Notes: generated by a model from the letters alone, not told the origin. Counted from the stretch's first letter, positions 18,330 through 42,410 are shown. The stretch is 64,000 nucleotides of DNA from Nitrospira defluvii (GCA_000196815.1 FP929003.1:3247501-3311500), one strand, 5' to 3'. Numbers and translations: made by a program.

Positions 18330-18446
18330 TCAGCAAGGGCACTGAATCCCGCCGAACCAGTAAAAAAACCAAAGGCTCACTGCCAGGGTGATGTAGAAAA
18401 TCATTTTGCCGATCTTAATCTGGACGTCATCCTGAGCAGCTTCCAT
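18330..18446 (-). CDS. Small single-helix membrane protein, candidate oxidase subunit
   Basis: A 38-residue protein from ATG 18446 with a GGGAG ribosome site. A short charged N terminus (EAAQDDVQIKIGK) is followed by a helix (about 15-34) with several aromatics and a C-terminal CPC motif. It is the first gene of the bd-like oxidase operon; the next small gene begins 50 bases on. The terminal Cys-x-Cys could bind metal or form a disulphide on the far side of the membrane (inference). No family is recognised. Confidence 0.7.
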   Translation of the reverse strand: MEAAQDDVQIKIGKMIFYITLAVSLWFFYWFGGIQCPC

Positions 18447-18482
18447 CTTGATTCTCCCAACGGTTTAAGTACGTATTTTGAA

Positions 18483-18508
18483 TTGACACACCAACTACGC
18501 TGTGTTAA
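18483..18508. promoter_or_regulatory. Dyad-symmetric element in the divergent promoter region of the oxidase operon
   Basis: TTGACACA (18483-18490) and TGTGTTAA (18501-18508) form an inverted repeat with 7 of 8 matches around a 10-base centre. It lies midway in the AT-rich 101-base gap between the oxidase operon (minus) and a small plus-strand gene. TTGACA at 18483 could serve as a plus-strand -35 box. The spacing suits a dimeric regulator, but no known consensus is matched exactly. Confidence 0.45.
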
Positions 18509-18547
18509 TCAAAATCCCTCACGCACATGATTTTTAAAGGGATTTTT

Positions 18548-18652
18548 ATGGCTAAAAATTCAAAAGTGTTCGACATTATAGTTTTGGCTGGAATGGTTGT
18601 CAATATCATTTTGGCCGTGTTTCTGATCCTCTACTACTTCGATTTCCTGTGA
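18548..18652 (+). CDS. Divergent 34-residue membrane protein
   Basis: ATG 18548 to TGA 18652. A basic N terminus (MAKNSK) is followed by one hydrophobic helix (about 8-31) ending in YYFDFL. A weak AAAGGGA ribosome site lies before the start. It is transcribed away from the oxidase operon and its 3' end overlaps the convergent FGE-domain gene by 47 bases. Charge distribution and helix length look genuine for a small membrane subunit, but coding status is unproven and no homologue is recognised. Confidence 0.5.
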   Translation: MAKNSKVFDIIVLAGMVVNIILAVFLILYYFDFL

Positions 18653-19559: not shown

Positions 19560-19570
19560 GATGCAACCGA

Positions 19571-20485: not shown

Positions 20486-20500
20486 TGCGTTACTCGCACC

Positions 20501-20902
20501 TCATGATTTGGTGACCGCGGAATGCGCCGCGGTTGAGTCATCACCCGCTTCCAGCGCTGCAGCTTTCCGCGCCGCACGCATGTCCAACAACATGGAAATC
20601 TGCACGCCGAGGAATCCTCCCATCGCCGCGCCGGCTCCCGCCCCAAACGAGACCTTTTCGAATCCCGCAACCAGCCACGCCAGCAGTCCGCCCAGCACCG
20701 TCCCGACTAAAATGCTGACCAGGAACCGACGCCCGCCAAGAAAACCAACCACCGCACCAAGCGCCAATCCCAATCCGGACGCCAAGGGAATAGACGAGCC
20801 GCCCAAAATGGTGCCAATCAAGGCACCGACGGTGCCCATGACCACGACGCCGAACACGACGTCGAACAGCGCACTGGTCGAAGGTCGGCTCAACGCTGAC
20901 AT
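20501..20902 (-). CDS. Glycine-rich small membrane protein, function unknown
   Basis: 133 residues from ATG 20902 (GAGGT ribosome site; an in-frame upstream start at 20932 lacks one). It has three or four hydrophobic glycine-rich segments (VVFGVVVMGTVGALIGTILGG, LALGAVVGFLGG, VGTVLGGLLAWLVAGF, GAGAGAAMGGFLGV) resembling glycine-zipper helices, then a polar tail. No recognised family. It lies between the DUF3047 gene and the FGE genes with gaps of 15-35 bases, so it is probably part of the same transcript. Confidence 0.65.
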   Translation of the reverse strand: MSALSRPSTSALFDVVFGVVVMGTVGALIGTILGGSSIPLASGLGLALGAVVGFLGGRRFLVSILVGTVLGGLLAWLVAGFEKVSFGAGAGAAMGGFLGVQISMLLDMRAARKAAALEAGDDSTAAHSAVTKS

Positions 20903-20936
20903 GAAGACCTCATCGTCGCAGAAAACGCGCAAACAC

Positions 20937-21614
20937 TCACTTGGCCTGACTCACCGTAACTGCGCCAAAATCGATCTCAACACCGGGGCCGGCAAACAGC
21001 GAGATTCCCCACGCTTTCTCTGCGGGCTCATGCTTATGAATACGCTTGAAGTCCTCATAGACATTCACGCGTTCTTCAACCCATTCCCCGACCGGAAGCA
21101 CTCCGCTCTGCACGACCAACTCGGATCCACTGAACATCCCCCCCTCGACAAACGTCCCTTCCGGCTTTCCGGCGCTCCAGATGTATTTCGTAAATACCGG
21201 GATAAACATCAAATCTGTATCCAGCGAGGCATAGAGCGCAGCAATCGGCTCCGACCCGGTGGGTGCCTTATGGAGACGCCATCGCCAGGTTAGTACCGGG
21301 TAGACCTTCGGATCCCAGTCGATTTTGCGTTTTTTCACACGCTGGCCCGCATCCTTGGCAGCGAGAAACTTTTTCCCGTCCTGTGACTGAATTTTGTAGG
21401 CATCTCGCCCCTTTGCCTGACTACGCTGGTTCTCATGCTGCCAATCGATCGGAAACCCATCCTGATCCGCCGACTGAAAATCCTCCAACACCAACACACC
21501 GGCTTCACCGGCATAAACCGGGACATCAGCTCCCATCGCACCGCACAAGTTCGCCAAACCCCACAATCCGATCGCCGCGACAAACATCCTCATAGCCATC
21601 TCACATTCCTTCAT
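20937..21614 (-). CDS. DUF3047-type exported protein
   Basis: 225 residues with an N-terminal signal sequence (to about residue 28). The body matches the DUF3047 pattern: VLVLEDFQS, GFPIDWQ, YPVLTWRWRLHKAPTG, ALYASLDTDLMFIP, KYIWSA, EWVEERVNVYEDFKRIH and a C-terminal IDFGAVTVSQ. These are beta-rich periplasmic proteins of unknown function. The start could be ATG 21614 or ATG 21599, since both have AAGGA-type sites. It directly follows the bd-like paralogue (8-base gap). Confidence 0.75.
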   Translation of the reverse strand: MKECEMAMRMFVAAIGLWGLANLCGAMGADVPVYAGEAGVLVLEDFQSADQDGFPIDWQHENQRSQAKGRDAYKIQSQDGKKFLAAKDAGQRVKKRKIDWDPKVYPVLTWRWRLHKAPTGSEPIAALYASLDTDLMFIPVFTKYIWSAGKPEGTFVEGGMFSGSELVVQSGVLPVGEWVEERVNVYEDFKRIHKHEPAEKAWGISLFAGPGVEIDFGAVTVSQAK

Positions 21615-21622
21615 CCACGTCC

Positions 21623-23488
21623 TTATGCCTCATGAGACGGAGACGGCAGAAAGCCTGCCTCCTTCTCCGCACTCACATCTTCATGCATCACCGGCTGCTG
21701 CCCGCGCTGACAGACCCAGAACAGGAAAAATACCGCCCCCCAAAACAGGACCATGTTGATCGTGACCATTTTGGCAGCGAATCCAAGCGATGGCGTAAAC
21801 GCCCAGGGAGACGTATCCGGCATCAACTCGTTGACATGCCAGGCCAACCGTCCGGAAGAGCGGATGTACCCCATCAACCCCATCACCCAGGTAAATGCCG
21901 CAGCCAATCCGAATAGGCCGACCATGCCGCGGACCGAAATCTGCCCCCATTGCACAGGACCGTGAATCATGGCACCTCGCAACATGCGCCGGTTCAGCAA
22001 CAGGCCCAGCGTGACCACGAGCAACGTGGTGACGGCCTGCGGACCTGACAGCCCGACGCGGAGACTGGCGGGAAGATAAAATCCATAGACCGACAAACCG
22101 ATGATGTGCGCCGCTCCGAGGCCGAACAGGGCCCCGAGGATGACATTCCCTGCTTTAGCCCAGGAGATCGTCATGGTTCGATTTGCGCGTCGATAAAAGA
22201 TGTAACTCAAGGCGGTGATGCAAATCATCACGTTGACCGCGCCGTTCTTCGACGACATGACGCCGTAGTTTCCGATGACCGGATGCTGCGCCCCGCCCAT
22301 GGCTTTCACCTCTGTCCCGGTCATCAAAATAGTATGAGGCGTCAGCCAGATAAACAGACAACCCGTCAGCGCGAGCAGCAAATATTGATAGTAGGGCTGA
22401 TAGCGCTCACCGCCGCGAATCCGCCCCATGCTCTGCCAGAGATAGTAATTCACCCCGAGAAAAAGGGCGCCGATCAACAACGCCTGCACTACGAAGAGCC
22501 AGGTCAGCAGCCCGCCCATCATCGTGACGCCCATGCTTTGACTATACGCATAGACGGAACGCATCAGCCAATAACCGGCGAACGGCATCGGCAAGAGGGC
22601 ACAGACGGTTACAAACAAGAACACGTAGCCGACCCAATCGTAATAGGCCCGCTCTTCCTGACTCTTGCCGGAAAAAAACCGATAACAGGCATAGGCCAGG
22701 ACGACCGCCCCACCCGACATGATGTCTGCAAGGAATCGATGCAAGTTCAACGGATTCCAGAGTGCCGAGCGGAGCAGATGCCAGGGATTCCCCAAATACC
22801 GTCCCTGGCCGTCGACGCCGGACGGCGCCATCATGAAGGCGGACCAAGCGTTGGCCAATAACAACAGCGATGTGCCGAACACCACCGCCAGCACACCGAT
22901 CGACAGGTGGACCCACTTCGATCCCGGGGCTGCCATCCGATCCCAACTGTAGTAGTACGCAATCGTCAGAAACGTCGTGCCGACAAACACCAGTGCATAG
23001 AGGGGCATCATGACCTTGAAGGTGCCGCCCATGTACTGCATGAAGCTGGGATACAGGGTGATAAACATCGTGAGCATCACGCTCCCGACCGCCGCGGTCA
23101 CAGACAGTGCCAGCAGCGCCACCTTCAACAGATCTTGCGCCAACCCGTCATAACGCAAGGCCATCGCGGGATTTTTCGCAACCAACCCCAGAAATTCCAA
23201 GAGGACGCAAAAGATCGGCAAGGCTAGAACGAAACCACCGAAGTACGTATGCTGCTGAATGATAAACCACATCAGCAACCGGCTATCGAGTGACCCGACT
23301 TGCGGGTAGTGGTTCTCATTCGCCGTCGGCGCCGAGGGACCGTCCGGAACCCCGGGCGTATGGAAATAGACATCTGCGGAGGGGTCGGCAGCCACCAGCA
23401 ACGATGGACTCAGCAGCAGAACACTCACGGCCACCAGCAACCCGCATAACAACAGCATCACGGACGGAAGCGGAAGGCGTTTGATCAT
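21623..23488 (-). CDS. Second cytochrome bd-like protein, lacking several candidate ligand residues
   Basis: 621 residues, clearly paralogous over its whole length to the 639-residue bd-like oxidase, with the same helices and shared motifs (QQHxYxGxFVLAxPIF, GVDxQGRYLGN, NPLNLHR, TPHTI, KAMGGxQHPVxGNYGVMS, WHVNE). H80, H194, H237, H250, H385 and H402 are kept. However, the positions matching H182, E191, H260 and E331 of the oxidase are P162, T171, R240 and S311. It is therefore probably not an equivalent oxygen reductase; an electron-transfer or scaffold role is possible. The start overlaps the upstream membrane-protein gene by four bases (ATGA). Confidence 0.8.
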   Translation of the reverse strand: MIKRLPLPSVMLLLCGLLVAVSVLLLSPSLLVAADPSADVYFHTPGVPDGPSAPTANENHYPQVGSLDSRLLMWFIIQQHTYFGGFVLALPIFCVLLEFLGLVAKNPAMALRYDGLAQDLLKVALLALSVTAAVGSVMLTMFITLYPSFMQYMGGTFKVMMPLYALVFVGTTFLTIAYYYSWDRMAAPGSKWVHLSIGVLAVVFGTSLLLLANAWSAFMMAPSGVDGQGRYLGNPWHLLRSALWNPLNLHRFLADIMSGGAVVLAYACYRFFSGKSQEERAYYDWVGYVFLFVTVCALLPMPFAGYWLMRSVYAYSQSMGVTMMGGLLTWLFVVQALLIGALFLGVNYYLWQSMGRIRGGERYQPYYQYLLLALTGCLFIWLTPHTILMTGTEVKAMGGAQHPVIGNYGVMSSKNGAVNVMICITALSYIFYRRANRTMTISWAKAGNVILGALFGLGAAHIIGLSVYGFYLPASLRVGLSGPQAVTTLLVVTLGLLLNRRMLRGAMIHGPVQWGQISVRGMVGLFGLAAAFTWVMGLMGYIRSSGRLAWHVNELMPDTSPWAFTPSLGFAAKMVTINMVLFWGAVFFLFWVCQRGQQPVMHEDVSAEKEAGFLPSPSHEA

Positions 23489-24570
23489 GACGACGCTCTC
23501 TGGCTGTTCTTGTCAAAGACAGCCGCAGATTCAGTCAATGCCGTACCAGCAATGGCTTCGCGGGACTTGCCGAGAATGCCCATGACGAATGGGCAGCGCA
23601 ACAAGGCGCTGGGCACTCCTCCAGGCTGACGATTTTCAATCTCCCGCCGATGTCCCAGGTAATAGCAGTACAGCGCCATCACGCCACCGACAAGGCCGGC
23701 GACGCCAGCGAAGAGTCCGGGTGAACTCATCGGCTGTTTCAACACATACAGACAACCGCCGACCAACACCAGATAGTAGGTCGAGGCAAAGGCCAACCCG
23801 GGCCACCACCAAAACTTCACCAATTCAGTCCAGCGGGTCGAGGACAATCCGGTCATCCAGGCTGCCCCAGCTCCTTGCCCGGCGAAAAACGCCAGGAGAC
23901 CAACCGTTCCCGCCGCCATCGTCACGACCGCGCCTTGCGCCAACACGGCCATGTCGCCACTGACAACCGCCGCCAGAAGCATTGAGAGACCCACGCAACT
24001 GACCGCTCCCGCCGCCACCCACCCCGCCAGTGCGGGCGTGACTCGTGCCAGCAGAGCACGAAGCCCCGCGCCATCAGGAAACGTGACGAACGGCCGCCCG
24101 CTGGCTTCAAGCCATCGCACATACCCGATCTCAAATGCATCGCGCGCGACCGCCGTACTGGGAATAATCATCGCCATCATGGCCGGGCCATCGGGATGCT
24201 TGGCATAGTCATATCCAACCAGCCAGAGTAGCGCCAGCACGAGCAGCGACAACTGCACTCCGTACACAAAACCGATCCAGGCTAGAATCCATCCGATACG
24301 TCTGGCTCCATCCGCGCTCGCTAATTGCGCAAACGGCACCCCTCGACCGACGCGATAGGCACAGATCGCCGTCACCAGCGACACCAGGCCGCTCAGGAGC
24401 AGCAGCGTCACCGGCTCTGCCAGCGACATGCCATGCTTCGCCGACCGGTATACCGCAAACGCCACCAGCCCCGGGACAAACATGACCAGGCGCTTTCTTG
24501 TTCGAACCGAATCTTCGGTGACGGCCAGCGTCAAACTTGGAAGGACTCGTAATGCCAATCGGTGCAACAT
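23485..24570 (-). CDS. Polytopic membrane protein of unknown family
   Basis: About 361 residues from ATG 24570; an in-frame TTG at 24591 is less convincing and neither has a strong ribosome site. Eight to nine hydrophobic helices cover the length, with a polar cytosolic-type segment (GRPFVTFPDGAGLRALLARV) in the middle and a polar C-terminal tail. Intramembrane motifs such as WIGFVYGVQ and KFWWWPGLAF are visible, but no family is recognised. The stop overlaps the start of the bd-like paralogue by four bases, strongly suggesting joint production and perhaps a shared complex. Confidence 0.7.
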   Translation of the reverse strand: MLHRLALRVLPSLTLAVTEDSVRTRKRLVMFVPGLVAFAVYRSAKHGMSLAEPVTLLLLSGLVSLVTAICAYRVGRGVPFAQLASADGARRIGWILAWIGFVYGVQLSLLVLALLWLVGYDYAKHPDGPAMMAMIIPSTAVARDAFEIGYVRWLEASGRPFVTFPDGAGLRALLARVTPALAGWVAAGAVSCVGLSMLLAAVVSGDMAVLAQGAVVTMAAGTVGLLAFFAGQGAGAAWMTGLSSTRWTELVKFWWWPGLAFASTYYLVLVGGCLYVLKQPMSSPGLFAGVAGLVGGVMALYCYYLGHRREIENRQPGGVPSALLRCPFVMGILGKSREAIAGTALTESAAVFDKNSQRASS

Positions 24571-24646
24571 GTTGTCAGTCGCCAAGCACAATGATAGGGG
24601 GCGCTAGAACGACGCCGGGGACTCTGCGCAAGAGCTGCCTCAGCAT

Positions 24647-25147
24647 TTACGCATCATCACGCTGAGCCGCCATGCCGAAATATCGCGCCTTCACTTCTTC
24701 CATCAGCGCGACGGTCACAGCGCGTTCACCACGATCCACCGCCGTTCGTTCCAACTCAACCCGGGCCATGGCCCGAACCGGCGCCGGCACATTGGCGAGG
24801 CGCTGCTCTGCATCCGAGTCCCATGAGACCATATCGCCCGTTTTCGCCTGATCGATCAAATCGTAGGTAATCACTCGTTGCCGTCTGGTCCGGGCAAACC
24901 CTTCCACCAGTTCACGCAGGACTGGAACGGCATAGGGAGGAACACGATCCAGCCGATGCCGGGCATCATCAGTCCACATCAGGCGATCGACTAACCCGTC
25001 GACCTGCCCCACCGGCACATCGACCCCCACTACCCACTGGCAGGGCCGACACTCCGAACGGACAAACCACGTGGGATCGCCCTCACGGGAGATACGCTCC
25101 TCAACACCCTCGGTATGCATCCATCCGCCGCACCCGCACACAAGCAT
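24647..25147 (-). CDS. Protein with Cys-rich N terminus and two PCP_red-like domains
   Basis: 166 residues from ATG 25147 (GAGGG site); upstream in-frame sequence is a shadow of the DUF420 gene. The first 45 residues hold four cysteines (CGC then CRPC), like a zinc ribbon. Two repeats follow that resemble the PCP_red domain of light-independent protochlorophyllide reductase: one beginning WTDDARHRLDRVPPY and one beginning WDSDAEQRLANVPAP, each ending in an alpha-helical ERT/ITYDLIDQA-type segment. PCP_red is also known outside phototrophs, with unclear function. It is placed between a DUF420 gene and membrane-protein genes of the bd-like paralogue train. Confidence 0.65.
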   Translation of the reverse strand: MLVCGCGGWMHTEGVEERISREGDPTWFVRSECRPCQWVVGVDVPVGQVDGLVDRLMWTDDARHRLDRVPPYAVPVLRELVEGFARTRRQRVITYDLIDQAKTGDMVSWDSDAEQRLANVPAPVRAMARVELERTAVDRGERAVTVALMEEVKARYFGMAAQRDDA

Positions 25148-25182
25148 ATCGGCCCTCAGCGCTTTATCTCCGCTCGACGTTC

Positions 25183-25899
25183 TTACCCGATTTTCCCAGG
25201 ATACAGGATGTACAACATGGCATACGTAAAGGTTCCGGTCAGAAAGAGGATGCAGTAGACGATCATGGTGAACCGGCCGAGGGCGCGGTGCCGCTGCCCG
25301 CCATCGGGCCAGATCCGTTGGATACCCATCTCCACTGCAAACACGATCGCGACCAGGGTGAGAAACCCGATATAGACCTCCAGCTTGCGCATGGAAAACC
25401 CGGCGGACATGACCCGTGCCCCGAATAACAGCATCACCACTGCCAGGAGCGCCGCAAATATCAGGCTCACCTTTTTCCACGATGTCTGCAACCGAGCTAC
25501 GCTCAGCACCCGTGCGCCGCTCAGAAATTGCTGCGAACGGAACCCCAGCACAATCATGTACACGGCCATGACCAACCCGATGATCACCAGAATGATATGG
25601 ATTGTCAGCACAGGGATGAACACGTAGTCATACAGGGCCTGGGACCCCCCGAATCCTTCTTTTCCTTCGAACGCCAACACCCCCAACTGCCGAAACAAAT
25701 AGTAGGCGGTGAAGAATCCGACCATGGTCACCATCCCGCCCAACATGAGCCAGTGATGGTGGTGCCCACGATGCTGCTTGGCCTGCAACCATCCGATGAT
25801 GAAGAGGCCGGTAAACAGCGTGGCCATCAACTGACTGAGATCGGCCCCCATTGTGGCGTGGGTGCCGAAGAATCCCGGCTGACGCAAAAATTCAAACAT
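25183..25899 (-). CDS. DUF420 membrane protein
   Basis: 238 residues with six to seven helices. Its core resembles the DUF420 (YozB/CtaM-like) family linked to cytochrome oxidase assembly: a histidine cluster after helix 1 (KQHRGHHHHWLM), YDYVFIPVLTIHIILVIIGL, and HRALGRFTMIVYCILFLTGTFTYAMLYILYP at the C terminus. Conserved histidines in helices could bind haem or copper. It lies eight bases after the methyltransferase gene and upstream of the bd-like paralogue. A role in assembly or electron transfer is inferred from the family. Confidence 0.72.
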   Translation of the reverse strand: MFEFLRQPGFFGTHATMGADLSQLMATLFTGLFIIGWLQAKQHRGHHHHWLMLGGMVTMVGFFTAYYLFRQLGVLAFEGKEGFGGSQALYDYVFIPVLTIHIILVIIGLVMAVYMIVLGFRSQQFLSGARVLSVARLQTSWKKVSLIFAALLAVVMLLFGARVMSAGFSMRKLEVYIGFLTLVAIVFAVEMGIQRIWPDGGQRHRALGRFTMIVYCILFLTGTFTYAMLYILYPGKIG

Positions 25900-25907: not shown

Positions 25908-26897
25908 TTACCCAACACTGGGCCTGAAACCCTGCACCACTGCCGTCCGCTCGATTTCCTCAACCGAGACATAGCCCCCATCGTGCATCCACTGCATGGC
26001 TTCTGCGGTGCGGTAGCAGGCGCCTTGTTCCGTATTGACGAGAATATGAACGGCAAACGCCGCCGTCCAGGCAGGGCTCGTACCCGACGCATCCAAGAAC
26101 CGGTCTTTGATGATCAAGCGCCCGCCGGGATTCAGGTGGCTATAGATTTTCTTCACCAGGGCGGCATTGGTGGCCAGATCCTGATAGTGCAGGATGTCCG
26201 ACATCAACACCACGTCATAGGGGCCGCCCAACGAATCGCGGTTGAAGTCCCCGGCCTTCAGGAAAATCCTGCCCTCCAGCCCCGCGTCCTTCACCGTCCG
26301 TTCGGTCAATGGGAGCGTCGTCTGCAAATCGAAGACCGTCGCCGAAAGTTGCGGGTACACTTGGCAAAACGCAATGGCATTGGTCCCGGCTCCGCCCCCG
26401 AGATCGAGCATCGTTCGCGCCTGGCCGAGCGCAAGCCGTTTCGCCAAGTCCGGACCACTTTGCTGCCCGATCCGGTGCAACACGGACAACACATTGGCGC
26501 CAAGCGCTGGATCCGTCTCGAAGACATGTTGCGTCACCGGCGAGCGACCGGTTTTCACGGCCTCCTCCAGCTTGCCCCAATTGCCCCATTCGGCATCATG
26601 CAACAACAGCAAGTGCCCGATATATTGCGGCCCGTGCTTGACCAGGTGCGTCCTGGCGACCGGCGTATTGGCATAGAGATCGCCGCTCTTCGACAGAAGC
26701 CTGATCGCCACCAGCGCATTCAGGAGTAACTCCAGCGCACGCACATCGGCACCGAGTTTTTCGGCCGCTTCAGAGGCGGTACGGCCTCGTCCATCCAGCA
26801 CCGAAAAGACGTCTAACTTGACGGCAGTCAAAAGGATTTTTGTTTCCCAGTAGTAGCCCAGCTGGAAGACTTCGGCGAGAGACAATTCACGAGGCAC
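25908..26897 (-). CDS. SAM-dependent methyltransferase (acetylserotonin O-methyltransferase-like)
   Basis: 329 residues from GTG 26897. An N-terminal winged-helix dimerisation region (about 5-90, KLDVFSVLDGRGRTASEAAEKLGA) is followed by a Rossmann methyltransferase domain with motif I MLDLGGGAGTNAI (about 165-177), DVVLMSDILHY and GGRLIIKDRFL. The architecture is shared with hydroxyneurosporene, BchU and small-molecule O- or C-methyltransferases. The substrate is unknown; its neighbours (PCP_red, bd-like protein) make a quinone or tetrapyrrole conceivable. First gene of the train running down to the FGE genes. Confidence 0.8.
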   Translation of the reverse strand: MPRELSLAEVFQLGYYWETKILLTAVKLDVFSVLDGRGRTASEAAEKLGADVRALELLLNALVAIRLLSKSGDLYANTPVARTHLVKHGPQYIGHLLLLHDAEWGNWGKLEEAVKTGRSPVTQHVFETDPALGANVLSVLHRIGQQSGPDLAKRLALGQARTMLDLGGGAGTNAIAFCQVYPQLSATVFDLQTTLPLTERTVKDAGLEGRIFLKAGDFNRDSLGGPYDVVLMSDILHYQDLATNAALVKKIYSHLNPGGRLIIKDRFLDASGTSPAWTAAFAVHILVNTEQGACYRTAEAMQWMHDGGYVSVEEIERTAVVQGFRPSVG

Positions 26898-27178: not shown

Positions 27179-27976
27179 CTACTTGATCTCGGCCTTCAAC
27201 GTGGCCGATCCACCCTCTGCAACCTCGACTTCAAATTCATTCAGCTTGCCCTTGCCGACAAACGGGTGCCAAACCACCACTTTGTGCTTTCCGGCAGGAA
27301 CGCCCTGAATCTCGAACGATCCATCGTCCTTCACCACTGCATGGTACGGATTCCAGACAGGGAGGAAGAAAGACTGCATGAACTCGTGCTGGTCGCACTG
27401 CAAACGATAGAAACCCTGCTTTTCCGCGCCGCCACGGAACGTCACCGGCTTCTCCAACTTGTCGCCCTTCTTTGCCAAACCGATATTGAAACCGGTGGCC
27501 GAGCTGGATCCCTTCACCACGAAGCTGTGCGGATTGTGCAACACGCCCAAGGTCGACTTGGGATCATCGGGATCGGCATCCTTATTCTCCGCACGGAAGT
27601 TCTTGTTGTTCACAACCACGCCGCTGAAGGGCAAGAATTCGCAGAATTCCGCCGTCACATCGGTTCCCTTGAACCCATCCTGGAACGCCTGATCTTCGAT
27701 ATCGACCACGGAGACGATCGCACCCTTCAGACCGCCATCCTTGGCAACTTCAATGGTCTTGAGGAAGCGCTTGTCGCCATCCATGAGGCTCTTGTTCGGG
27801 TTCTTCGGGCAGAACTTCGGGTTCGGGAACTTGGAGAAGGAGAACTCCTTCTGCTCGGCCTTCCCGGCATAGGTCACTTTCCCGGCAATCGTGCCTCCGG
27901 CAAACGAGACGAGGGGCGCAGCCAAAAATGCTGCGGCCGCAACGCCGAATACTGCTTTCATCGCACCCTTCTTCAT
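27179..27976 (-). CDS. Periplasmic cupredoxin-like / carboxypeptidase-regulatory-type protein
   Basis: 265 residues with a signal peptide (cleavage likely after SFA). The N-terminal beta domain carries FPNPKFC and FCEFLPF cysteines and a conserved H150 (LHNPHSF). A C-x2-H-x2-M motif (C194, H197, M200) then leads straight into a carboxypeptidase-regulatory-like fold (NPYHAVVKDDGSFEIQGVPAGKHKVVVWHP). The spacing of His, Cys, His and Met recalls a type 1 copper site, so copper binding or electron transfer is likely but unproven. It belongs to the same family as the proteins at 30251 and 31207 but is more diverged. It has its own promoter and a roughly 150-base leader. Confidence 0.75.
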   Translation of the reverse strand: MKKGAMKAVFGVAAAAFLAAPLVSFAGGTIAGKVTYAGKAEQKEFSFSKFPNPKFCPKNPNKSLMDGDKRFLKTIEVAKDGGLKGAIVSVVDIEDQAFQDGFKGTDVTAEFCEFLPFSGVVVNNKNFRAENKDADPDDPKSTLGVLHNPHSFVVKGSSSATGFNIGLAKKGDKLEKPVTFRGGAEKQGFYRLQCDQHEFMQSFFLPVWNPYHAVVKDDGSFEIQGVPAGKHKVVVWHPFVGKGKLNEFEVEVAEGGSATLKAEIK

Positions 27977-28131
27977 GTCACTGCCTCCTTAGTAATGAAC
28001 ATTAACCGAAACCGAACACCTACTCCGTCACCACTCAATCACAAGGGCTGGTGACCCGTACCCCTTGTTATAACAGTCGCATTCACTTGACGTGACTCCA
28101 CGTCGACTACGTTTAGGCCTCTGAACATTTC

Positions 28132-28161
28132 TCTATACTGGAATCATACTCACACTGTCAA
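28132..28161 (-). promoter_or_regulatory. Sigma70-type promoter for the 27179-27976 gene
   Basis: On the minus strand a perfect TTGACA (28156-28161) is separated by 18 bases from TATAGA (28132-28137). The predicted transcript start leaves a leader of about 150 bases that contains a 6-bp inverted repeat, GACGTG/CACGTC, at 28089-28104 and another, ACAAGGG/CCCTTGT, nearer the start codon. Confidence 0.6.
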
Positions 28162-28186
28162 CTTGAAATCCAGCCGCCGAAGCCTC

Positions 28187-29584
28187 CTAGGATTTCGCCT
28201 GATTAGGGGATGACTTGGCACGAGCGAGAATGCGAGCAATCGACCCTCCCACGGTAGCCCGAACGGCATCGTCTTCGTCATGCAGGGCCAGCTTCAACAT
28301 CGGCAACAGGTCCACCCCTCCGATCTGCCCGAGCGCCCGGGCCGCAGCGATCCGAGGGCGCGGAATGGGATCCTTCAACATGCCCGAAAGAAACTCAATC
28401 GCGGCCTTCGTATTGGCGCCATGAGCCCTCCCTGCGGCCTTACCGGCTGCGGAGCGGGTTCCGGGATCGTGATTCTGAGCCAATTCATACAGTGCCTCAC
28501 CAACGGACTCAAACGGTTCCTCAACCCGCAGCAGCGCCGACACAACCGCCGCCTTAACCACCGCGTTCGGGTCGGCCAGCGCCTTCCTCAATGCACCCAG
28601 CGAATCTTTCACGCCTAATTCGCCCAGACTGATCGCCGCCGAAGTTTTCACGGCCGGAATCTTATCTTGCAGTGCATGCTCCAACGCAGGGATACCCTGC
28701 ACTTTACCGAGCTCCCCTAACGCCGACGCTGCGGCCCCGCGCACAGAAGGCTGTGTGTTGGTGATGGCCTCCAGCAGAACCGACAATCCGCGCGCATCCT
28801 TCAACTCCCCCACCATCCGCAGCGCTGTGGCGCGCTCTTCCGGATTCGAAGCGGAGGCAGCCTTCAGTATCGTATCCCACATCGCCGTCTGCCCCGTATG
28901 GTACAACGCTCCCGCCGCCGCGAGCCGCACCGCCGGCTGTTCGTCCTTCAGGGCCTTCTCAAGTAGCGGAATCACCGAGCGGTCTCCACTCTTCCCCAGG
29001 ACCTTCAGTACAGTGGCCTTGACCAGCCCGGCCTGATCTTCCAAGGCATTACGCAAGCGCGGCGAACGCCGCCCCGCCTCCAGCTTTCCCAGAGCTTCTG
29101 CCGCCAAAGCGCGTACCAGCCCGGATCCGTCACTTAATCCGTCCTCGAGCGCAGGAATCGTCTCCGGAGAATCCACGTCTTTCAGCGCCGTATAGGCCGC
29201 CCCACGCATCTGCTCCCGCATGTCTTTAATCAGTACGTACACGAAGCCCAGCGCCACGTCTTTCAACAGCGTCCGGTCCTCCTGTTTCAAGTCCTGCTCC
29301 AGACGCTCATACTCGACTAGTGCGTCCTTGGGCTTTCCTAAAAAAATCAATGAACGAGTCTTGAGCCGCCGGGCCTCCGGTTGAGGGCCCTGGTCCTTAG
29401 TCAGCTGCTCAACAAGGTCCAGGGCCTCCTGGTACTGCTTCTTGTCGAACGCCGCCTGCGCCTCCTTCAGCGAACGCGCGGATGCAGCCGACGGCCACAG
29501 GCAGAGAAGCACCCCGGACGCAACCGCCACTGCCATCCATCCACTTACTGTTCGACGCCGATGCGACTCACCGTGCAATGCCAT
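28187..29584 (-). CDS. Exported HEAT-repeat protein
   Basis: 465 residues from ATG 29584 (GGAAGGGA site). A signal sequence ends near ASA (about residue 37). A short TPR-like unit (LKEAQAAFDKKQYQEALDLVEQL) follows, then roughly ten HEAT/PBS-lyase-type repeats with recurring VRAxAAxALGxLG patterns to the C terminus. Such solenoids act as protein-binding scaffolds; no enzyme motif is present. It lies just after the LolA-like small protein gene and within a run of periplasmic protein genes, so a role in assembling the copper proteins or other exported complexes is possible (inference). Confidence 0.82.
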   Translation of the reverse strand: MALHGESHRRRTVSGWMAVAVASGVLLCLWPSAASARSLKEAQAAFDKKQYQEALDLVEQLTKDQGPQPEARRLKTRSLIFLGKPKDALVEYERLEQDLKQEDRTLLKDVALGFVYVLIKDMREQMRGAAYTALKDVDSPETIPALEDGLSDGSGLVRALAAEALGKLEAGRRSPRLRNALEDQAGLVKATVLKVLGKSGDRSVIPLLEKALKDEQPAVRLAAAGALYHTGQTAMWDTILKAASASNPEERATALRMVGELKDARGLSVLLEAITNTQPSVRGAAASALGELGKVQGIPALEHALQDKIPAVKTSAAISLGELGVKDSLGALRKALADPNAVVKAAVVSALLRVEEPFESVGEALYELAQNHDPGTRSAAGKAAGRAHGANTKAAIEFLSGMLKDPIPRPRIAAARALGQIGGVDLLPMLKLALHDEDDAVRATVGGSIARILARAKSSPNQAKS

Positions 29585-29613
29585 GAAATCCCTTCCTGGT
29601 CGTACCACGAACG

Positions 29614-30219
29614 CTACCCTCTCTCTTGTGTTGCGGATGCCGGGGCCCAGCGTCGATATCCCGTCGGTTCTTCAAAATAGTAATCCGGCTGCGGAGAGAA
29701 CCGGATCCGCGAATACTCAATGGACCAATCCCGGTCTTGGCTGACCAATTTCAGGACCACTCCGGTCTCAGCATCCACCCATTCGTAAAACCGTTCATCC
29801 CGGCCGTTATAGTCCACCCGCACCTCATAGAGCTTGGATGCGCGCCCGATCGTCGTGGCATCGCCCACTAACGTCCGGCTCTTTTCTCCCGGAAGGCTGG
29901 GTTGAATCGGCAGGATTTCTTCGGGCTTGACGGGAACCGGAAGAATTTGCCGGCGCTGGGCCAGCAAGAACCACGACTCGTGCTTATCCAATCGAACGAT
30001 TTCTATACTGGAATAGCCGAGCTCAGTCTTGACCGCATACTTATACTCCAGTCGGATACGGTCGCCCTTTGCAAACACCTGAGCCTCGAAACGACGCCCT
30101 TCCACCCGCTTCGTCAACGACGCGGAAAATTCAGACGGAGCAGCGGGGAATGCAGCATTTGTGTCCGAGGCCTCACTGACACCGGACCAACAAAGGAACG
30201 CCGAAAGAGAAACTCCCAC
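29614..30219 (-). CDS. Exported LolA-fold-like protein of unknown function
   Basis: 201 residues from GTG 30219; no ATG is available upstream in frame. A short signal-like N terminus is followed by a beta-rich domain with FEAQVFAKGDRIRLEYKY, SSIEIVRLDKHESWFL, YEWVDAETGVVLKLVSQD and SRIRFSPQPDYYFEEPTGYR. This pattern (anti-parallel sheet with metal- or lipid-carrier-like turns) resembles the LolA/LppX-like fold or DUF4412 proteins, but identity is uncertain. It sits 31 bases after the cupredoxin-like gene and before the HEAT gene. Confidence 0.6.
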   Translation of the reverse strand: MGVSLSAFLCWSGVSEASDTNAAFPAAPSEFSASLTKRVEGRRFEAQVFAKGDRIRLEYKYAVKTELGYSSIEIVRLDKHESWFLLAQRRQILPVPVKPEEILPIQPSLPGEKSRTLVGDATTIGRASKLYEVRVDYNGRDERFYEWVDAETGVVLKLVSQDRDWSIEYSRIRFSPQPDYYFEEPTGYRRWAPASATQERG

Positions 30220-30250
30220 GCACCACCGTGAGAGGTGCTCCCACCTGGGC

Positions 30251-31177
30251 TTAGTGCTGATGCTCCACCAGGGGCTCGATCTCCACGGGATGGCCGAGGG
30301 ACTCCAGACCGAAACGGGGGTTGTCCATGACCCGGTAGGCCGTTCTGGTTCCCCTGGGAGCGGGCAGTGCCACGTGCTCCACCGTCATCCCGTCCGGACC
30401 GACCGTGATCGTCCGCGTCACCCCAGGCCCTGCCTGCGGATGCCAGACCACCATCTGATACGTCCCCGGCGGGACATTGTCGATCTTGAACGCGCCCTGG
30501 TCGTCGGTCACCGCATAGTACGGATTGTTCACGGCCATCGCCCAGCTTTCCATGTAGGCGTGAAAGCCGCACTGCATGTAGAACGTCCGCCGCCCCTTGT
30601 TCAGATAGACCGGCCCCACCAGAGATTTTCCCGGCGCATGGTTGTGAATCGCATGCATGTTTCCGCGTTGATGCTGTTGATTCAAGATCAGGGGCGTATT
30701 AAACAGCACCCGGGCCCCGGCCTCGGGAGAGGTTTCATAGCCCTGAATGTCGTGCATCACCGGATCCATATTCACCACTTCCACCGCGTGCCCGTTGCGC
30801 ACGATCGTCATCCAGGGACCGAACATGCAATCCCGCGCCTCGATGAGTGGCACCGAAAGATCAAACGGCTTCCCCGACTCGACCCCTTCAAGCAGCACAA
30901 CGGCATTTTTCAATCCGCTTTCGCTGTTCACGATGAAGTCGCGCAGCAGACGCCAACCCTTCCCATTCGAGATCCTTCCACAATAGGTGGGGTCCGGGAA
31001 GGTGATGAGATTGAACGCCTTCGGATCCGGAACGGCGCCCGACAAGGTGACTCGTCCTTCTAGCGTCCCGCCATGCTGAACGTCGACAATCTCATAGGCA
31101 GAGAGCGGGGGCACAACCTGAGACAACCAGACGACAAGTGCAAGACAACGGAGCAGGCTGGAACGAGTCAACCTCAT
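30251..31177 (-). CDS. Periplasmic cupredoxin-like / carboxypeptidase-regulatory-type protein
   Basis: 308 residues with a signal peptide and a GGGAG ribosome site. It is closely related to the next protein. Shared features are an N-terminal GTLEGRVTLSG beta strand, FPDPTYCGRIS and EARDCMFG cysteines, VNMDPVMHDIQ with H142 (the usual first His ligand position of cupredoxins), a His-rich stretch (MHAIHNH), then MQCGFHAYM with C203, H206 and M209, and a carboxypeptidase-regulatory-like tail (GAFKIDNVPPGTYQMVVWHP). A mononuclear copper site is the simplest reading. It follows its paralogue by 29 bases. Confidence 0.75.
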   Translation of the reverse strand: MRLTRSSLLRCLALVVWLSQVVPPLSAYEIVDVQHGGTLEGRVTLSGAVPDPKAFNLITFPDPTYCGRISNGKGWRLLRDFIVNSESGLKNAVVLLEGVESGKPFDLSVPLIEARDCMFGPWMTIVRNGHAVEVVNMDPVMHDIQGYETSPEAGARVLFNTPLILNQQHQRGNMHAIHNHAPGKSLVGPVYLNKGRRTFYMQCGFHAYMESWAMAVNNPYYAVTDDQGAFKIDNVPPGTYQMVVWHPQAGPGVTRTITVGPDGMTVEHVALPAPRGTRTAYRVMDNPRFGLESLGHPVEIEPLVEHQH

Positions 31178-31206
31178 AATCTCCCTCTTTCTTCGTCGAA
31201 GAGCTC

Positions 31207-32115
31207 TTAGGGAACCTGACGCTGCAATGTCGGACGAATATCCACAACCTTTCCAAGCGACTCGGGGCCGTAATGCGGATTCTGCTCGATCTCATGCACA
31301 CTTCGACGTCCTTGCGGTGCCTTGAAGTCGAAATCGACGGTCGAGAGGCCCTTTTCCGTCACGATCACTTTCTTTTGCAACATCGTGCCGACCCCGGGAT
31401 GCCAGACCATCAGCGTATAGTCGCCGGGCGGAACATCCGTCAAATTAAAGGTGCCGTCATCACCCGTCAGGGCGAAATAGGGGTTATCGACGGCGAATCC
31501 CCAGCTTTCCATATAGGCATGGAATCCGCACTGCATCAGAAAAATTCTCCGCCCCTTAGTCATATGAATCACTTCCGTAACCGGCTCGCCCGCCAGATGC
31601 TCATGACTTTCCGCGCTCACGAGACGTTTGTGATGGGGATTCATCGGCAACGGGGTATTGAATAGGACGCGAGGGCCGAGTTGGGAGGTCTCATAGGCCT
31701 GGATATCGTGCATGACCGGATCCATGTTCATGACCGCCACGTCAGAACCATCTTTCACAACCGTGACGAAAGGAAGGAACCGGCAATCCCTCGCTTCGAT
31801 GGTCAAGGGTTCGAACTTGAACGGCTTCCCCTTCGTCACATCGGTCAGCACGACCACCACATCTTTCAGACCTTGGCCGGAAGCCAGGGAAAACTCATCG
31901 AGAATTCGCCACCCCGTTCCAGTGGAAATGCGCCCGCAATAGACCGGATCCGGAAAGGTGATCAGGTTATATCCCTTCGGGGTTGGCTTTCCCCCGGTCA
32001 TAGTGACAGTTCCTTTTATGGTACCGCCATCCGTGACCGCGATCTCCTCATAAGCCCACGATGGAGACCAGCAGACACTGACAGCGCAGAGCACGGCAAG
32101 GCCGACTAATCGCAT
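31207..32115 (-). CDS. Periplasmic cupredoxin-like / carboxypeptidase-regulatory-type protein
   Basis: 302 residues from ATG 32115 (GGAGGG site), with a signal peptide ending SWA; upstream in-frame sequence is Cys-rich nonsense. It has H136 (MDPVMHDIQ), a His-rich loop (HHKRLVSAESHEH), C196/H199/M202 in MQCGFHAYM, and a regulatory-like tail (GTFNLTDVPPGDYTLMVWHP). It is nearly a duplicate in layout of the 30251 protein. Located between that gene and the terminator of the giant multicopper oxidase, it likely belongs to the same copper-dependent periplasmic system (inference). Confidence 0.76.
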   Translation of the reverse strand: MRLVGLAVLCAVSVCWSPSWAYEEIAVTDGGTIKGTVTMTGGKPTPKGYNLITFPDPVYCGRISTGTGWRILDEFSLASGQGLKDVVVVLTDVTKGKPFKFEPLTIEARDCRFLPFVTVVKDGSDVAVMNMDPVMHDIQAYETSQLGPRVLFNTPLPMNPHHKRLVSAESHEHLAGEPVTEVIHMTKGRRIFLMQCGFHAYMESWGFAVDNPYFALTGDDGTFNLTDVPPGDYTLMVWHPGVGTMLQKKVIVTEKGLSTVDFDFKAPQGRRSVHEIEQNPHYGPESLGKVVDIRPTLQRQVP

Positions 32116-32270: not shown

Positions 32271-35200
32271 CTACTTGGCCGCGACAGGAATCGCGTGCGC
32301 AACCGGCTGCTCGACCTCGGCACTCTTCATACCGGCGCTTGCCCCAGCCAATGGCAGCAGTCGTGTATCGCCGGACGGCAATACCCGCACATATCCCCAC
32401 TGACCGGACTGCGAGTACGGCAAGCGCTGGTTGCTGTACACATAATCCCCGGGGAGACGATACATTCCACCCGCCGAGGGGAGGAACGCGTCGATCGTCT
32501 CAGAACCGGAGAACTCCACGACACTGATCAGGTCAGCGCCCCGCATAAACGGCTCGATCGGCCATTCGTGCTTCTCAACGCTGAACATACCGTTCTGCTC
32601 GTTGCTGACACCCAACACATGAATACGCACCGGATCGCCGGCATGCGCTTCGATGAGCGGGGTCGCCGGATCTTCCGGCTTGTCGGCCTTACAAGGCTGG
32701 AACACCTTGCCGAGCGAGCAACCCTGCTCTTCACGGAACTTGTACGGTTCCGACCGGTAATTGACGCCGGTCAAACCCGCCACGTTCTGCACGTAGGGCA
32801 TGAAACTCGTGCCGATGATGTTGTCTTCATCCTGGAAGAACAACGCCACGTCACGATAATTCGCCCGCATTTCATTGCCCGGCACCGAGCGATCGATGAT
32901 GACATCGGCTGCCCAGGCATTCTTGTTGGACAAATCCGCGCCGGTCTTGGGATCACGATACTTCGATCCTTTGGGTCCGACGACGACGGCGCCGAACAAC
33001 CCGTTCCGAGGATTGGTCATCACATTGCCCCAATCCCACACCAACGAAGTCGTCTCGCCGTTAAACGGATCGGCGTAATAGGTGTAGTCCCGCTCACCTC
33101 CCGGGGCCACGGTCTGGTCTCCCGGATTGTTCCCCACGTTCGCGCCCATGGAATCCTTCGGATCGAAGGCCAGGCCGATCGCAGAGAAGGAGGCTTTGCT
33201 GTCCTTCATCTTGTTCTTCAAATGGACCTTGACGCAATCACCGCTGTTCACACGGAGCGTCAACGGCATCGGATGCGCACCACCGGCGACTTTCGCAGTG
33301 TCCTCTTCCAATGCATAGATCTTGGCTTCGGCATTGGTCATGAGGATCCGTCGCTCAAAGTCCACTTCGATGGATTCCGGTGCCTTGGCATTGAACTTCA
33401 TGCCGGCATAGTCCATCGCCACCACGTTGAACTGCTTGACGGGAGCATCGGCGGGACACACCGGCAGAGGCTTCGGCATCTCGCCCTTGTTGGAGAAGCC
33501 CGCGGGCAGCTTCTTCAAATCAGACTGCTCCTTGTCCAACACCCGAATGATTCCCCAGCCACCCTCGGAGAACTTCGAGGAGCGGCCGTTGAAATGGATG
33601 TAGTCGCCGGCCTGGTGCCGTGATCCACCCGCCTCTGGAACCACCAGATCATACCGCTCGGCAATACCGATATGGATCGAGTTCTTTCGATTGGCATCCG
33701 AGGCATACCGCTCAGTCCAGAACGTGTGGCCGGACAGGGTCCAGACCATCGACTCGTTCATGAGGGTGTGCAGCAGACGGAAGACCATCGTGTCACCGAC
33801 ATAGGCGCGCAAGGTGGGCGTGTACGGATCGCCGTGCACCAGGCTGCTGAAAATCTGTGACGAATCAGGATTGGTCGCCAACCGCTGCGCAACCGGCGCC
33901 GCCCTGAAGTTCAAGCCGCTGCCGGTGGTGTGCGTGCCACCGTTCAGGAACGGCATCGGCGTCATGTAGATCTTCTCCGGCATCATGAAGGAGACGGTCT
34001 TTCCCGCCTCGAGCGCCACTTCAATCGGCTGCCCGGGAGGATTGCCAGCCGTCACGATGTTGACGGTATGCGGCACGGTATCGTGCACTTGCACCATCAA
34101 TTCACGGAAGCTGTTGTTCACGCCATGACCAACCGGCTCATTCGTGTGAATGTCCGCAATCGGTCCGCTACGGATCAACTTTCCGGTCTTCGGGTCATGA
34201 TACGTCGATCCGACCGGCTCGGCGATGAAGGTGCCGAAGCCGCCGTGCGGCCAGGTGGTCGCACCGAACGCGTGATCGTGCCAGAACACGGTCCCCACGT
34301 CCGCATCGACCCAGAACCGCTGACGCACGAACTCAACCGTGACGATGTCATTGGCCGGGTGATCGTTCTTCAGCCCTTTGGCCAATGTAATCGTATTGCC
34401 GTTGATGGCCTTGATGCGGGAGATTTCATTCCCCTTCACATTGTCGGCACCGACAAGCAGCAGGGTCCCGACATGGAACTGCTTGGCATTCTTCACCGTG
34501 ATCGTATTCGCGCCCTTCTTGGCTGGCGCGGTCACGACGGTGTTCATCGGGACAGGAAGTCCCTTCGCGTTCTTCTTCTCCAGCATCGTGAACGGACGCA
34601 CCGATTGCTCATAGGAGAATCCGGTGATCACGCCGTCGGACGCCTGGTTGTCGAACTGCAGGAAATGCCAGTGGGTGTTGATCTTCGACGACTGGAAGTT
34701 GGTGTAGTCATCGTCGTCCCACTCGCTGGTCAAGGTCCAGTCCACGCAATCGTAGATGTTGCCGCGGACGACCAACGGATACTTCAGATCATCGTTTTTC
34801 CGAATCTCCGCCTCTTCTTCGTGCAAGACATAGATCAAGCCGTTCGGATCGATGACCGGCGGCTCCTTGCCCGTTTTCTTGGCGATGGTGATCGGGAGCT
34901 TAATGAAGTGGACATTGTAGTGCTTCCGTCCGGCATTCTCCGGGCAGAGACTCCAATTGCCGTTTTCACCAGGCAGGGCCTGATCGACGCTTTCCTCACC
35001 GTTGGCATCCCGGCGGATCATCTCCAACCAGGGCGCACCCACGTGGTTCGGAGAGAACATCACGCGTCTCCCGAAATGCGGGGTGAGGTGAGGCCAGGCC
35101 ACTTTACCGGTCAACGGCTCGAACGTGATCGGATGCCGCTTGCCCGGATGGGTCGACTTATACTTCGGATTGTCGATCGCACTTTCCGGTTCGCTCAATG

Positions 35201-37136
35201 CACGGGTGCCTTCCCAGGCCCAATCCAACACCGTGGCATCGTAGGACACGGTCTGTCCCTTTTCGTCGTTCTTGTGTCCCGGCTTGCCCATCGTCGGGAG
35301 CTGCATTTCGACCCAGTCCTTGATTGTGATCGTGGCCGGATTGGACTTCCAATCACTCTTGCCCTTCTCGACGATCTTGAAGGACTTACCGAACCAATCC
35401 ACAGTCTGACCGACTAACTTATCCGAAGTGATCGGACCCCTGATACGACCTTTCCGATCGGGCAACTCAAGCAGATCCGGCATGACGTCATTACGCATGT
35501 CGCCCTGTTGAAGAGTGTTGTACACCCGCCAATATCCCCACATGCCCGCCACATAATGGTGCGCCACGTGGCAATGGAACAGGAAATCGCCGGCCAACTG
35601 CTGGCAGAGGCCGGAGCCGCACTCCGTCTCGAGGTCCAACGCTTCCGACGGCCCGATGACTTCGACGTCGACGCGATCCGTCTTGGCACGGATCACCGGA
35701 TACTTGACCGGTCCGTTTCCGGCGGTCGTCCACAGATTCATGTCATCAATGGCGCGCGGACTGCGCGGCCACCGGATGGTGCCGCCATGCGGATGGTGGC
35801 TATGGAACACTTCCGATCCGCCGTGGACCAGGCGGAACTTCGCCGGGTCGCCCATGTAGGAGCGCGGGATCGTGGGAGACGGATCGCCGAAGGTGTACGA
35901 GCTGTACCCCATCGACTCGTCTTCGAATCCGAAGTACTCGTGTTGCACGTGCATGTTGTTGATTCCGAACGGCTCGCTTCGATAGTTGATCGCACGACCG
36001 CCCGGGCGATAGGCGTCGGTCAGCGGGTCACGCTGAGGAAGAAAGTCGCCTTTCTTATTGACGGGGCGGAAAGCTTCGTCGCCGACCTCGTGATAGTACA
36101 GCACGAATTCACGGAAGTCCGGACCGGTCCCGTTCTTGATCATCACCTGCCAGCCGCTCGAGGCTGGCGTGGGCGCCCCGCTCCCCAACGCTTCCAGGTA
36201 TTCGGATCCGCGCGGCTCGACGACAAAGGACCCGAAGAGGCCCATCACGGTCAACTCGCGGTCATTGGCGAACGTGTGGAACTGCCGGACGCCTTCCTGG
36301 GTGCTCGGATGAATGTACCACTCGAACTCTCCGCTCTTATCCTTCTGGACGATGCTGTCGGAGTTCGTCGTGGCGGCTGCGGCACCGGTGGCGCTCACCA
36401 CCATGCTGGAGCCATGGATGTGAAGGCTGACGTCTTCGCCACCTTCCAACTTGTTGCTCAACTTGATCTTGACGCAATCCCCCTGGTTGCCGCGAATCGT
36501 CAACGGCTGAATCCACTGAGCTTGCACACCGGGAATCACCGCGCCGGGATCAAAGCCTTCCTTGTCTCGGGCTTCCCGATTCTTCGTTTCTTCCGCTCGA
36601 ACCTTGTCGAGATTTTCGTCCAGCGTGTACATGTAGCCGGGATAAAAATCGAGCCACTGGTTCAGCGTGATCTCGACGTTGATCGCCGACACATTGTACT
36701 GCCTGACCGGCGCGGAGGCCGGGCACTTCCCGCCTCCCGCAAGTGCCACTGGCTCCACTCGTGGGTCGGACATCAACAGGAGATCCTGACCGCCTGCTCC
36801 ATATTGGTGCATCATGGTCTGGGTATTGAACATACCCGTATTGACCTGCTGCGCCTGCGGATCATGAGTTAAATGCTCCATGATCCGTTGGTGCTGCTGC
36901 TCAACCATCGCAGAACGCTCCGGCTTTCCAGCCATCGCATCTTCGACGATCGTCTGCCCCTTCAACTTCTCCGCCCAGGACGGGAGTTGATGAGACATCG
37001 CTGTTTGTTGCGGCGCCGCATGGTCCACATGCGGCTGAGTTTCAGCCGATGCGGCTAGCGGAAGACACACAAGCGCACCACCAGCGATGACGCTGAGGGC
37101 GCGCGATGTGACACGAGTGAACCAATGACAATCCAT
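32271..37136 (-). CDS. Giant three-unit multicopper oxidase
   Basis: 1621 residues with a signal peptide (to about 31) and an AAGGAGG ribosome site. Three homologous units each begin CPAxAP/CPENA followed by a NVxxxx strand and NxGDCVK. Unit 1 (about 138-550) has a full copper set: HIH (239-241), H276 and H287, HSHHPH (445-450) and HCHVAHHYVAGM (521-532), the last giving type 1 and type 3 ligands. Unit 2 (about 731-1200) has THWH (821-824) and WHDHAF (952-957), with a roughly 80-residue insert (865-940). Unit 3 (about 1227-1590) keeps the frame but has lost the copper histidines. Bacterial three-domain oxidases are about 500 residues, so this is a tandem fusion. The substrate is unknown. Confidence 0.88.
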   Translation of the reverse strand: MDCHWFTRVTSRALSVIAGGALVCLPLAASAETQPHVDHAAPQQTAMSHQLPSWAEKLKGQTIVEDAMAGKPERSAMVEQQHQRIMEHLTHDPQAQQVNTGMFNTQTMMHQYGAGGQDLLLMSDPRVEPVALAGGGKCPASAPVRQYNVSAINVEITLNQWLDFYPGYMYTLDENLDKVRAEETKNREARDKEGFDPGAVIPGVQAQWIQPLTIRGNQGDCVKIKLSNKLEGGEDVSLHIHGSSMVVSATGAAAATTNSDSIVQKDKSGEFEWYIHPSTQEGVRQFHTFANDRELTVMGLFGSFVVEPRGSEYLEALGSGAPTPASSGWQVMIKNGTGPDFREFVLYYHEVGDEAFRPVNKKGDFLPQRDPLTDAYRPGGRAINYRSEPFGINNMHVQHEYFGFEDESMGYSSYTFGDPSPTIPRSYMGDPAKFRLVHGGSEVFHSHHPHGGTIRWPRSPRAIDDMNLWTTAGNGPVKYPVIRAKTDRVDVEVIGPSEALDLETECGSGLCQQLAGDFLFHCHVAHHYVAGMWGYWRVYNTLQQGDMRNDVMPDLLELPDRKGRIRGPITSDKLVGQTVDWFGKSFKIVEKGKSDWKSNPATITIKDWVEMQLPTMGKPGHKNDEKGQTVSYDATVLDWAWEGTRALSEPESAIDNPKYKSTHPGKRHPITFEPLTGKVAWPHLTPHFGRRVMFSPNHVGAPWLEMIRRDANGEESVDQALPGENGNWSLCPENAGRKHYNVHFIKLPITIAKKTGKEPPVIDPNGLIYVLHEEEAEIRKNDDLKYPLVVRGNIYDCVDWTLTSEWDDDDYTNFQSSKINTHWHFLQFDNQASDGVITGFSYEQSVRPFTMLEKKNAKGLPVPMNTVVTAPAKKGANTITVKNAKQFHVGTLLLVGADNVKGNEISRIKAINGNTITLAKGLKNDHPANDIVTVEFVRQRFWVDADVGTVFWHDHAFGATTWPHGGFGTFIAEPVGSTYHDPKTGKLIRSGPIADIHTNEPVGHGVNNSFRELMVQVHDTVPHTVNIVTAGNPPGQPIEVALEAGKTVSFMMPEKIYMTPMPFLNGGTHTTGSGLNFRAAPVAQRLATNPDSSQIFSSLVHGDPYTPTLRAYVGDTMVFRLLHTLMNESMVWTLSGHTFWTERYASDANRKNSIHIGIAERYDLVVPEAGGSRHQAGDYIHFNGRSSKFSEGGWGIIRVLDKEQSDLKKLPAGFSNKGEMPKPLPVCPADAPVKQFNVVAMDYAGMKFNAKAPESIEVDFERRILMTNAEAKIYALEEDTAKVAGGAHPMPLTLRVNSGDCVKVHLKNKMKDSKASFSAIGLAFDPKDSMGANVGNNPGDQTVAPGGERDYTYYADPFNGETTSLVWDWGNVMTNPRNGLFGAVVVGPKGSKYRDPKTGADLSNKNAWAADVIIDRSVPGNEMRANYRDVALFFQDEDNIIGTSFMPYVQNVAGLTGVNYRSEPYKFREEQGCSLGKVFQPCKADKPEDPATPLIEAHAGDPVRIHVLGVSNEQNGMFSVEKHEWPIEPFMRGADLISVVEFSGSETIDAFLPSAGGMYRLPGDYVYSNQRLPYSQSGQWGYVRVLPSGDTRLLPLAGASAGMKSAEVEQPVAHAIPVAAK

Positions 37137-42375: not shown

Positions 42376-42410
42376 CGGCTGCAGCCTTTCTTGATCACAT
42401 AGGGTGTCGC

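Follow-up and report, generated by a model that had tools for sequence, protein, structure and literature searches.

Candidate periplasmic electron carriers beside a giant MnxG-like multicopper oxidase in Nitrospira defluvii: predicted amicyanin-type cupredoxins nested in a carboxypeptidase-regulatory-like domain

The analysed stretch of the Nitrospira defluvii genome (64,000 nucleotides, FP929003.1:3247501-3311500, hereafter the window) carries on its minus strand three genes for exported proteins, here called A (302 aa, 31207-32115), B (308 aa, 30251-31177) and C (265 aa, 27179-27976), together spanning exactly the interval (27179-32115) that an earlier note on this DNA had given. The start codon of A is the ATG at 32115, and a longer GTG open reading frame extending to 32244 was discarded as a longest-ORF artefact. 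Sec-type signal peptides, assigned by eye, end in ...SWA/YEE, ...LSA/YEI and ...SFA/GGT in A, B and C, respectively, which points to a periplasmic location for all three. Judged by their alignment, A and B are tandem paralogues, yet with 49% identity they are not the near-duplicates they had been taken for; C shares 29% identity with A. The gene immediately upstream of A encodes a multicopper oxidase of 1621 aa (32271-37136, minus strand), so that the tandem pair does adjoin the giant oxidase, while C is separated from B by two genes on the same strand and in conserved positions, one for an exported PepSY-like small protein (29614-30219, a sub-threshold Pfam match) and one for an exported HEAT/TPR-repeat protein (28187-29608).

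All three proteins possess the cysteine pair, the upstream histidine and the C-x2-H-x2-M loop that were first noticed in them. The loop of A (C196-x2-H199-x2-M202) is encoded at 31510-31530 and its fourth ligand, H136, at 31708-31710; the corresponding positions are 30551-30571 and 30752-30754 in B (C203, H206, M209 and H142), and 27377-27397 and 27536-27538 in C (C194, H197, M200 and H147), all on the minus strand. An alignment of 33 relatives contains ten invariant columns, including C60, C111, H136, C196, H199 and M202 of A, and these six residues are also invariant in the wider homologue set (244/244), a degree of sequence conservation far beyond chance. The division of the upstream histidines into an HDIQ type in two proteins and an HSF type in the third did not survive alignment: the ligand of C occupies the same place as the others (VL-H147-N aligned with VM-H136-D), and the histidine of HSF, which we rejected as a motif specific to C, is the next one along, where A and B have glutamine.

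Searches of A, B and C against Pfam, NCBIfam and, with single sequences, the PDB gave no cupredoxin call, and a profile search was required. A profile of the cupredoxin segment of A (residues 101-209, 31489-31815, minus strand, with boundaries taken from the alignment) matched 5fc9, the cupredoxin Nmar1307, best among solved structures (E 1.6e-4), followed by amicyanin (E 0.002-0.04), and aligned H, C, H and M one for one with H53, C92, H95 and M98, the established ligands of amicyanin. AlphaFold2 models of A (pLDDT 89.7, pTM 0.86) and C (pLDDT 88.2, pTM 0.83) retrieved amicyanin, plastocyanin, the NirK-linked cupredoxin 6hbe and 5fc9 in Foldseek with probability 1.00 and E-values from 1e-5 to 1e-3. 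The models thus predict a Greek-key cupredoxin beta-barrel for A and C, and the alignment predicts the same fold for B. By sequence register the His-Cys-His(-Met) set falls on the canonical type-1 copper positions, and together with the fold match this register implies that the four ligands would cluster round one metal. A CuA site, which requires two cysteines in the loop, was rejected because the loop has only one. The original suspicion of a type-1 copper site has therefore passed the sequence and fold tests (amicyanin register, amicyanin-like predicted folds of A and C, ligand invariance), and A, B and C almost certainly each bear a predicted blue-copper electron-transfer site.

The C-terminal part of each protein matches the CarboxypepD_reg/fn3_3/EMC7 type of Pfam domain, the CarboxypepD_reg match extending over the second half of the profile only. 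In that half, the intact proteins score 34.2 (A), 31.9 (B) and 17.2 bits (C) against PF13620, whose curated cut-off of 32.3 bits is exceeded by A and not by B or C. When the cupredoxin was cut out in silico, joining the N-terminal strands directly to the C-terminal part, the scores rose from 35.0 to 45.6 bits for A, from 34.8 to 43.6 for B and from 20.6 to 29.4 for C, a gain of 9-11 bits in all three, and almost the full profile was covered. The shorter joins were picked by eye; the longer construct of A and its shuffled control were not. With the whole segment 30-92 of A kept, the score was 45.1 bits, and with that segment shuffled it was 34.8, i.e. the gain disappeared. Since excising the cupredoxin raises the score, it most likely lies inside a CarboxypepD_reg-type sandwich; a regulatory-like domain is indeed present at the C-terminus, but the copper domain is nested within it rather than followed by it. 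This architecture, together with the missing Pfam match, means that routine annotation overlooks this copper protein family. In Foldseek, the model of A could moreover be superposed through its C-terminal part on a small subunit of the hydrazine dehydrogenase complex of Kuenenia (6hif, chain Y; 53 columns, rmsd 1.2 A), a likeness that suggests a docking role.

The neighbouring oxidase contains one complete set of T1 and trinuclear ligands (H445/448/450, H521-C522-H523, H527, M532, H822/824 and H953/955). These ligands are invariant across 96 aligned oxidases, one of which has an undetermined sequence stretch over the HCH motif, so on sequence grounds the neighbour of A is a multicopper oxidase whose copper-binding residues are intact. 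In the PDB it matches only MnxG strongly (9bxa, E 6e-76). Direct membership in MnxG was rejected, and the protein is classed here by sequence as MnxG-like, because its score against the NCBIfam model NF041487 is 133 bits, far under the equivalog cut-off of 3100. Three such giant oxidases are found in this genome. The third copy (locus L071:8172-13085, 74% identical) is without a cupredoxin neighbour, as are its equivalents in six other sampled genomes.

Directly after C, and likewise on the minus strand, follow genes for an O-methyltransferase-type enzyme that is distantly BchU-like (25908-26897), a DUF420 membrane protein in conserved position (25183-25899), a PCP_red-domain protein (24647-25480, where the listed start overlaps the neighbouring gene and is probably too early), a membrane protein with no assigned family that is conserved in the cluster (23485-24591), and a cytochrome bd-like oxidase subunit I-type protein that marks the conserved cluster end (21623-23488). 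Across Nitrospirales, the order oxidase, A, B, PepSY-like, HEAT, C, methyltransferase, DUF420, PCP_red, membrane protein, bd-like oxidase, DUF3047 is conserved on one strand. The PCP_red neighbour of the methyltransferase hints at tetrapyrrole or quinone modification. A homologue of this methyltransferase also occurs elsewhere in the genome (L072:10023-11036), adjoining a distant cupredoxin paralogue. Beside the cluster, positions 16175-25899 hold two cytochrome bd-like oxidase genes, the DUF420 and PCP_red-domain genes and two FGE-sulfatase-type genes, and a heme-b/cytochrome c protein is encoded at 11851-13743. FGE-like genes recur beside oxidase-cupredoxin modules at other loci (L069, L088, L105, L150, L155). 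Upstream of the region, 40828-42483 encodes a protein of 551 aa with an aKG-HExxH-type peptide beta-hydroxylase domain (TIGR04267).

The earlier note had suggested that the proteins may be dedicated redox partners of the oxidase, in which case the two should be found together across genomes. In a sample of 296 Nitrospirota genomes, oxidase and cupredoxin family both occur in the same 114 genomes of the class Nitrospiria (114/114), in agreement with that expectation; outside the class, distant cupredoxins were detected in 30 of 182 genomes, nearly all of them without the oxidase, and weak oxidase matches in 3. Because possession of both is almost a trait of the class, adjacency tests the link better. 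Among loci chosen by cupredoxin A and having upstream sequence, an oxidase sequence lies directly upstream on the same strand in 77 of 77, and among loci chosen by the oxidase alone, an A/B-type gene lies directly downstream on the same strand in 43 of 51. Of the other eight loci, seven are paralogue copies (about 72-78% identical) and one is followed by a further oxidase gene; within this oxidase-selected set, one paralogue clade of about 74% identity lacks a neighbouring cupredoxin. Tree distances of the oxidase and of the neighbouring cupredoxin correlate at r = 0.85 (permutation maximum 0.19), to which shared species history contributes, and for four of the six pairs of modules that share a genome, the nearest oxidase and the nearest cupredoxin of the reference module belong to the same module, or to equivalent modules, in other genomes. 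Given the near class-wide occurrence of both genes and the species history contained in the correlation, neither co-occurrence nor correlation proves interaction. In class-level Nitrospiria genomes, the oxidase and the A/B-type cupredoxin or cupredoxins alone are left, without bd-like genes in the stretches read, and we therefore regard oxidase plus cupredoxin as the minimal conserved unit.

Seven members of the cupredoxin family were found in this genome. A close paralogue of A (54% identity) heads a complex-I/hydrogenase-4-like membrane gene set (L070:1-9686), with no oxidase in that stretch. Two distant paralogues adjoin putative porin-like genes (L072:7397-8881 and L073:10025-11470), whose products have one N-terminal CxxCH (AIPAFARKY...C-x2-CH) and no Pfam or NCBIfam match, and may resemble fused cytochrome-porins. 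A wide family profile proved too divergent to scan genomes with, and the best 80 matches of a narrower one were all of Nitrospirota type, two of them labelled Nitrospinota; the named relatives outside the phylum therefore come from plasmids only. These plasmid-encoded homologues (25-32% identity) occur in Sinorhizobium, Rhizobium, Phyllobacterium, Caballeronia and Comamonas, and are annotated as 'carboxypeptidase regulatory-like' in the rhizobia and as 'methylamine utilization protein' in Caballeronia and Comamonas; we found no functional work on them in the open-access literature. The one neighbourhood read, that of the Sinorhizobium homologue, has SCO and cbb3 oxidase genes instead of an MnxG-like oxidase. 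Taken together, A and B are linked to the oxidase class-wide, but one oxidase clade stands without a cupredoxin, a paralogue stands by complex-I/hydrogenase-4-like genes, C travels with the methyltransferase and the bd-like oxidase as part of a wider cluster, and the distant relatives outside the class nearly all lack the oxidase. 'Dedicated to the oxidase' is thus only partly supported, and too strong.

The same neighbourhoods raise the question of whether the main partner is instead a different respiratory complex, such as the cytochrome bd-like oxidase, the multicopper oxidase being only co-transcribed. The Nitrospirales cluster ends in the bd-like oxidase, one paralogue sits by complex-I-like genes, two distant ones sit by CxxCH-bearing putative porins, and the Sinorhizobium homologue sits by cbb3 oxidase genes. 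We nevertheless consider this quite unlikely, given that the class-level unit of oxidase and A/B-type cupredoxin persists without bd-like genes in the stretches read.

Among characterised proteins, amicyanin (PDB 1aac, 1sfd), the electron carrier of methylamine dehydrogenase, has the same predicted cupredoxin fold and the same H...C-x2-H-x2-M set in register. It is a free protein of about 105 residues, whereas in A, B and C a CarboxypepD_reg-like host encloses the domain and an additional pair of cysteines is invariant. Membership in amicyanin (the mauC product) was rejected: the neighbours here are a multicopper oxidase, a HEAT protein and a bd-like oxidase, not methylamine dehydrogenase genes. 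The purple cupredoxin Nmar1307 of Nitrosopumilus maritimus, the best solved-structure profile match, even shares the H-[DN]-I-Q motif, but is a single domain. Nmar1307 reportedly has an open copper site and is said to carry out one-electron oxidation of nitric oxide. The match, and the host's place in a nitrifier lineage, would suit a role of each cupredoxin as a small enzyme of this kind, a prospect that we regard as very improbable because methionine occupies the axial-ligand position in 244/244 members of the family, predicting a closed, amicyanin-type site.

Another possibility is that A, B and C hand copper to the giant oxidase, or serve it as non-redox accessory subunits. The giant oxidase needs several coppers. 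In Bacillus, the MnxG oxidase is likewise accompanied by two neighbouring copper-type proteins, MnxE and MnxF, which bind copper and are required for MnxG expression (PMC5622069); tandem copper-type genes beside an MnxG-like enzyme parallel mnxE/mnxF, and the 6hif_Y likeness of A and the SCO and cbb3 genes beside the distant Sinorhizobium homologue also fit copper delivery or assembly. MnxE/F are proteins of about 12 kDa, in contrast to the roughly 300-aa amicyanin-type cupredoxins A and B. They had in 2017 no similarity to any characterised protein (PMC5622069), and neither appeared among the matches of our solved-structure searches with A, B and C. Delivery seems doubtful to us: MnxE/F may themselves participate in electron transfer (PMC5622069). 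Moreover, an intact H-C-H-M type-1 set, invariant throughout the family, is of the electron-transfer type, unlike the sites of copper chaperones, which normally use exposed Met/His or CxxxC+His.

The oxidase has been in print since 2013, when Luecker et al. described in Nitrospina and N. defluvii an MnxG-like oxidase encoded near the genes for nitrite oxidoreductase and bd-like oxidase, proposed a role in ROS defence, and mentioned that the nitrite oxidoreductase cluster includes two cupredoxin-like proteins (PMC3578206). Those two probably differ from the present family, since some 30 kb or more separate the window from the best nitrite oxidoreductase alpha-type matches (3.19 and 3.217 Mb), where none of the seven detected members of the family is encoded. 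In the open-access literature we found no description of this cupredoxin family and no mention of A, B or C. Two novel multicopper oxidases were reported from Manganitrophaceae by Yu et al. in 2022, who reasoned that Mn(II) lithotrophy via such oxidases needs electrons to go to a periplasmic carrier instead of oxygen (PMC9040806).

The ligand set, the cupredoxin fold, the nesting, the gene linkage and the intact oxidase ligands are supported by computation. Our preferred reading, to which we assign a probability of roughly 0.6, is that A, B and C work in the periplasm as type-1 copper carriers of a conserved Nitrospiria respiratory module built on the MnxG-like multicopper oxidase and, in Nitrospirales, the cytochrome bd-like oxidase, with A and B serving the oxidase and C the membrane complex. 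Each protein would hold its amicyanin-type H-C-H-M copper site in a cupredoxin nested in the CarboxypepD_reg-like beta-sandwich. We infer copper loading, docking, electron direction and substrate: A and B would most likely bind to the oxidase and exchange single electrons with it, and the membrane complex encoded downstream would be linked to the same electron pool by C. Multicopper oxidases usually draw electrons directly from their substrate and require no carrier, which counts against assigning A, B and C this role, as do the oxidase clade without a cupredoxin neighbour and the close paralogue by complex-I-like genes. A more far-reaching version, which we hold to be unlikely, has the cupredoxins, nested in docking domains, exchange electrons as a periplasmic copper wire between the MnxG-like oxidase and the bd-like oxidase of the membrane; energy conservation would then be fed by the giant enzyme's oxidation of its substrate, or respiratory electrons would reach a soluble oxygen-reducing enzyme. 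If true, it would supply the periplasmic carrier called for by the authors on manganese-oxidizing Nitrospirota.

Nitrospira play a major part in nitrite oxidation and in complete ammonia oxidation, manganese-oxidizing autotrophs are found among their relatives, and both groups encode giant multicopper oxidases without an assigned role. As candidate electron carriers for the giant oxidase, A, B and C and the conserved cupredoxins that neighbour such enzymes offer concrete, expressible candidates for the periplasmic carrier of Yu et al. (PMC9040806), and an electron-transfer partner, if confirmed, would make the role of the oxidase directly testable.
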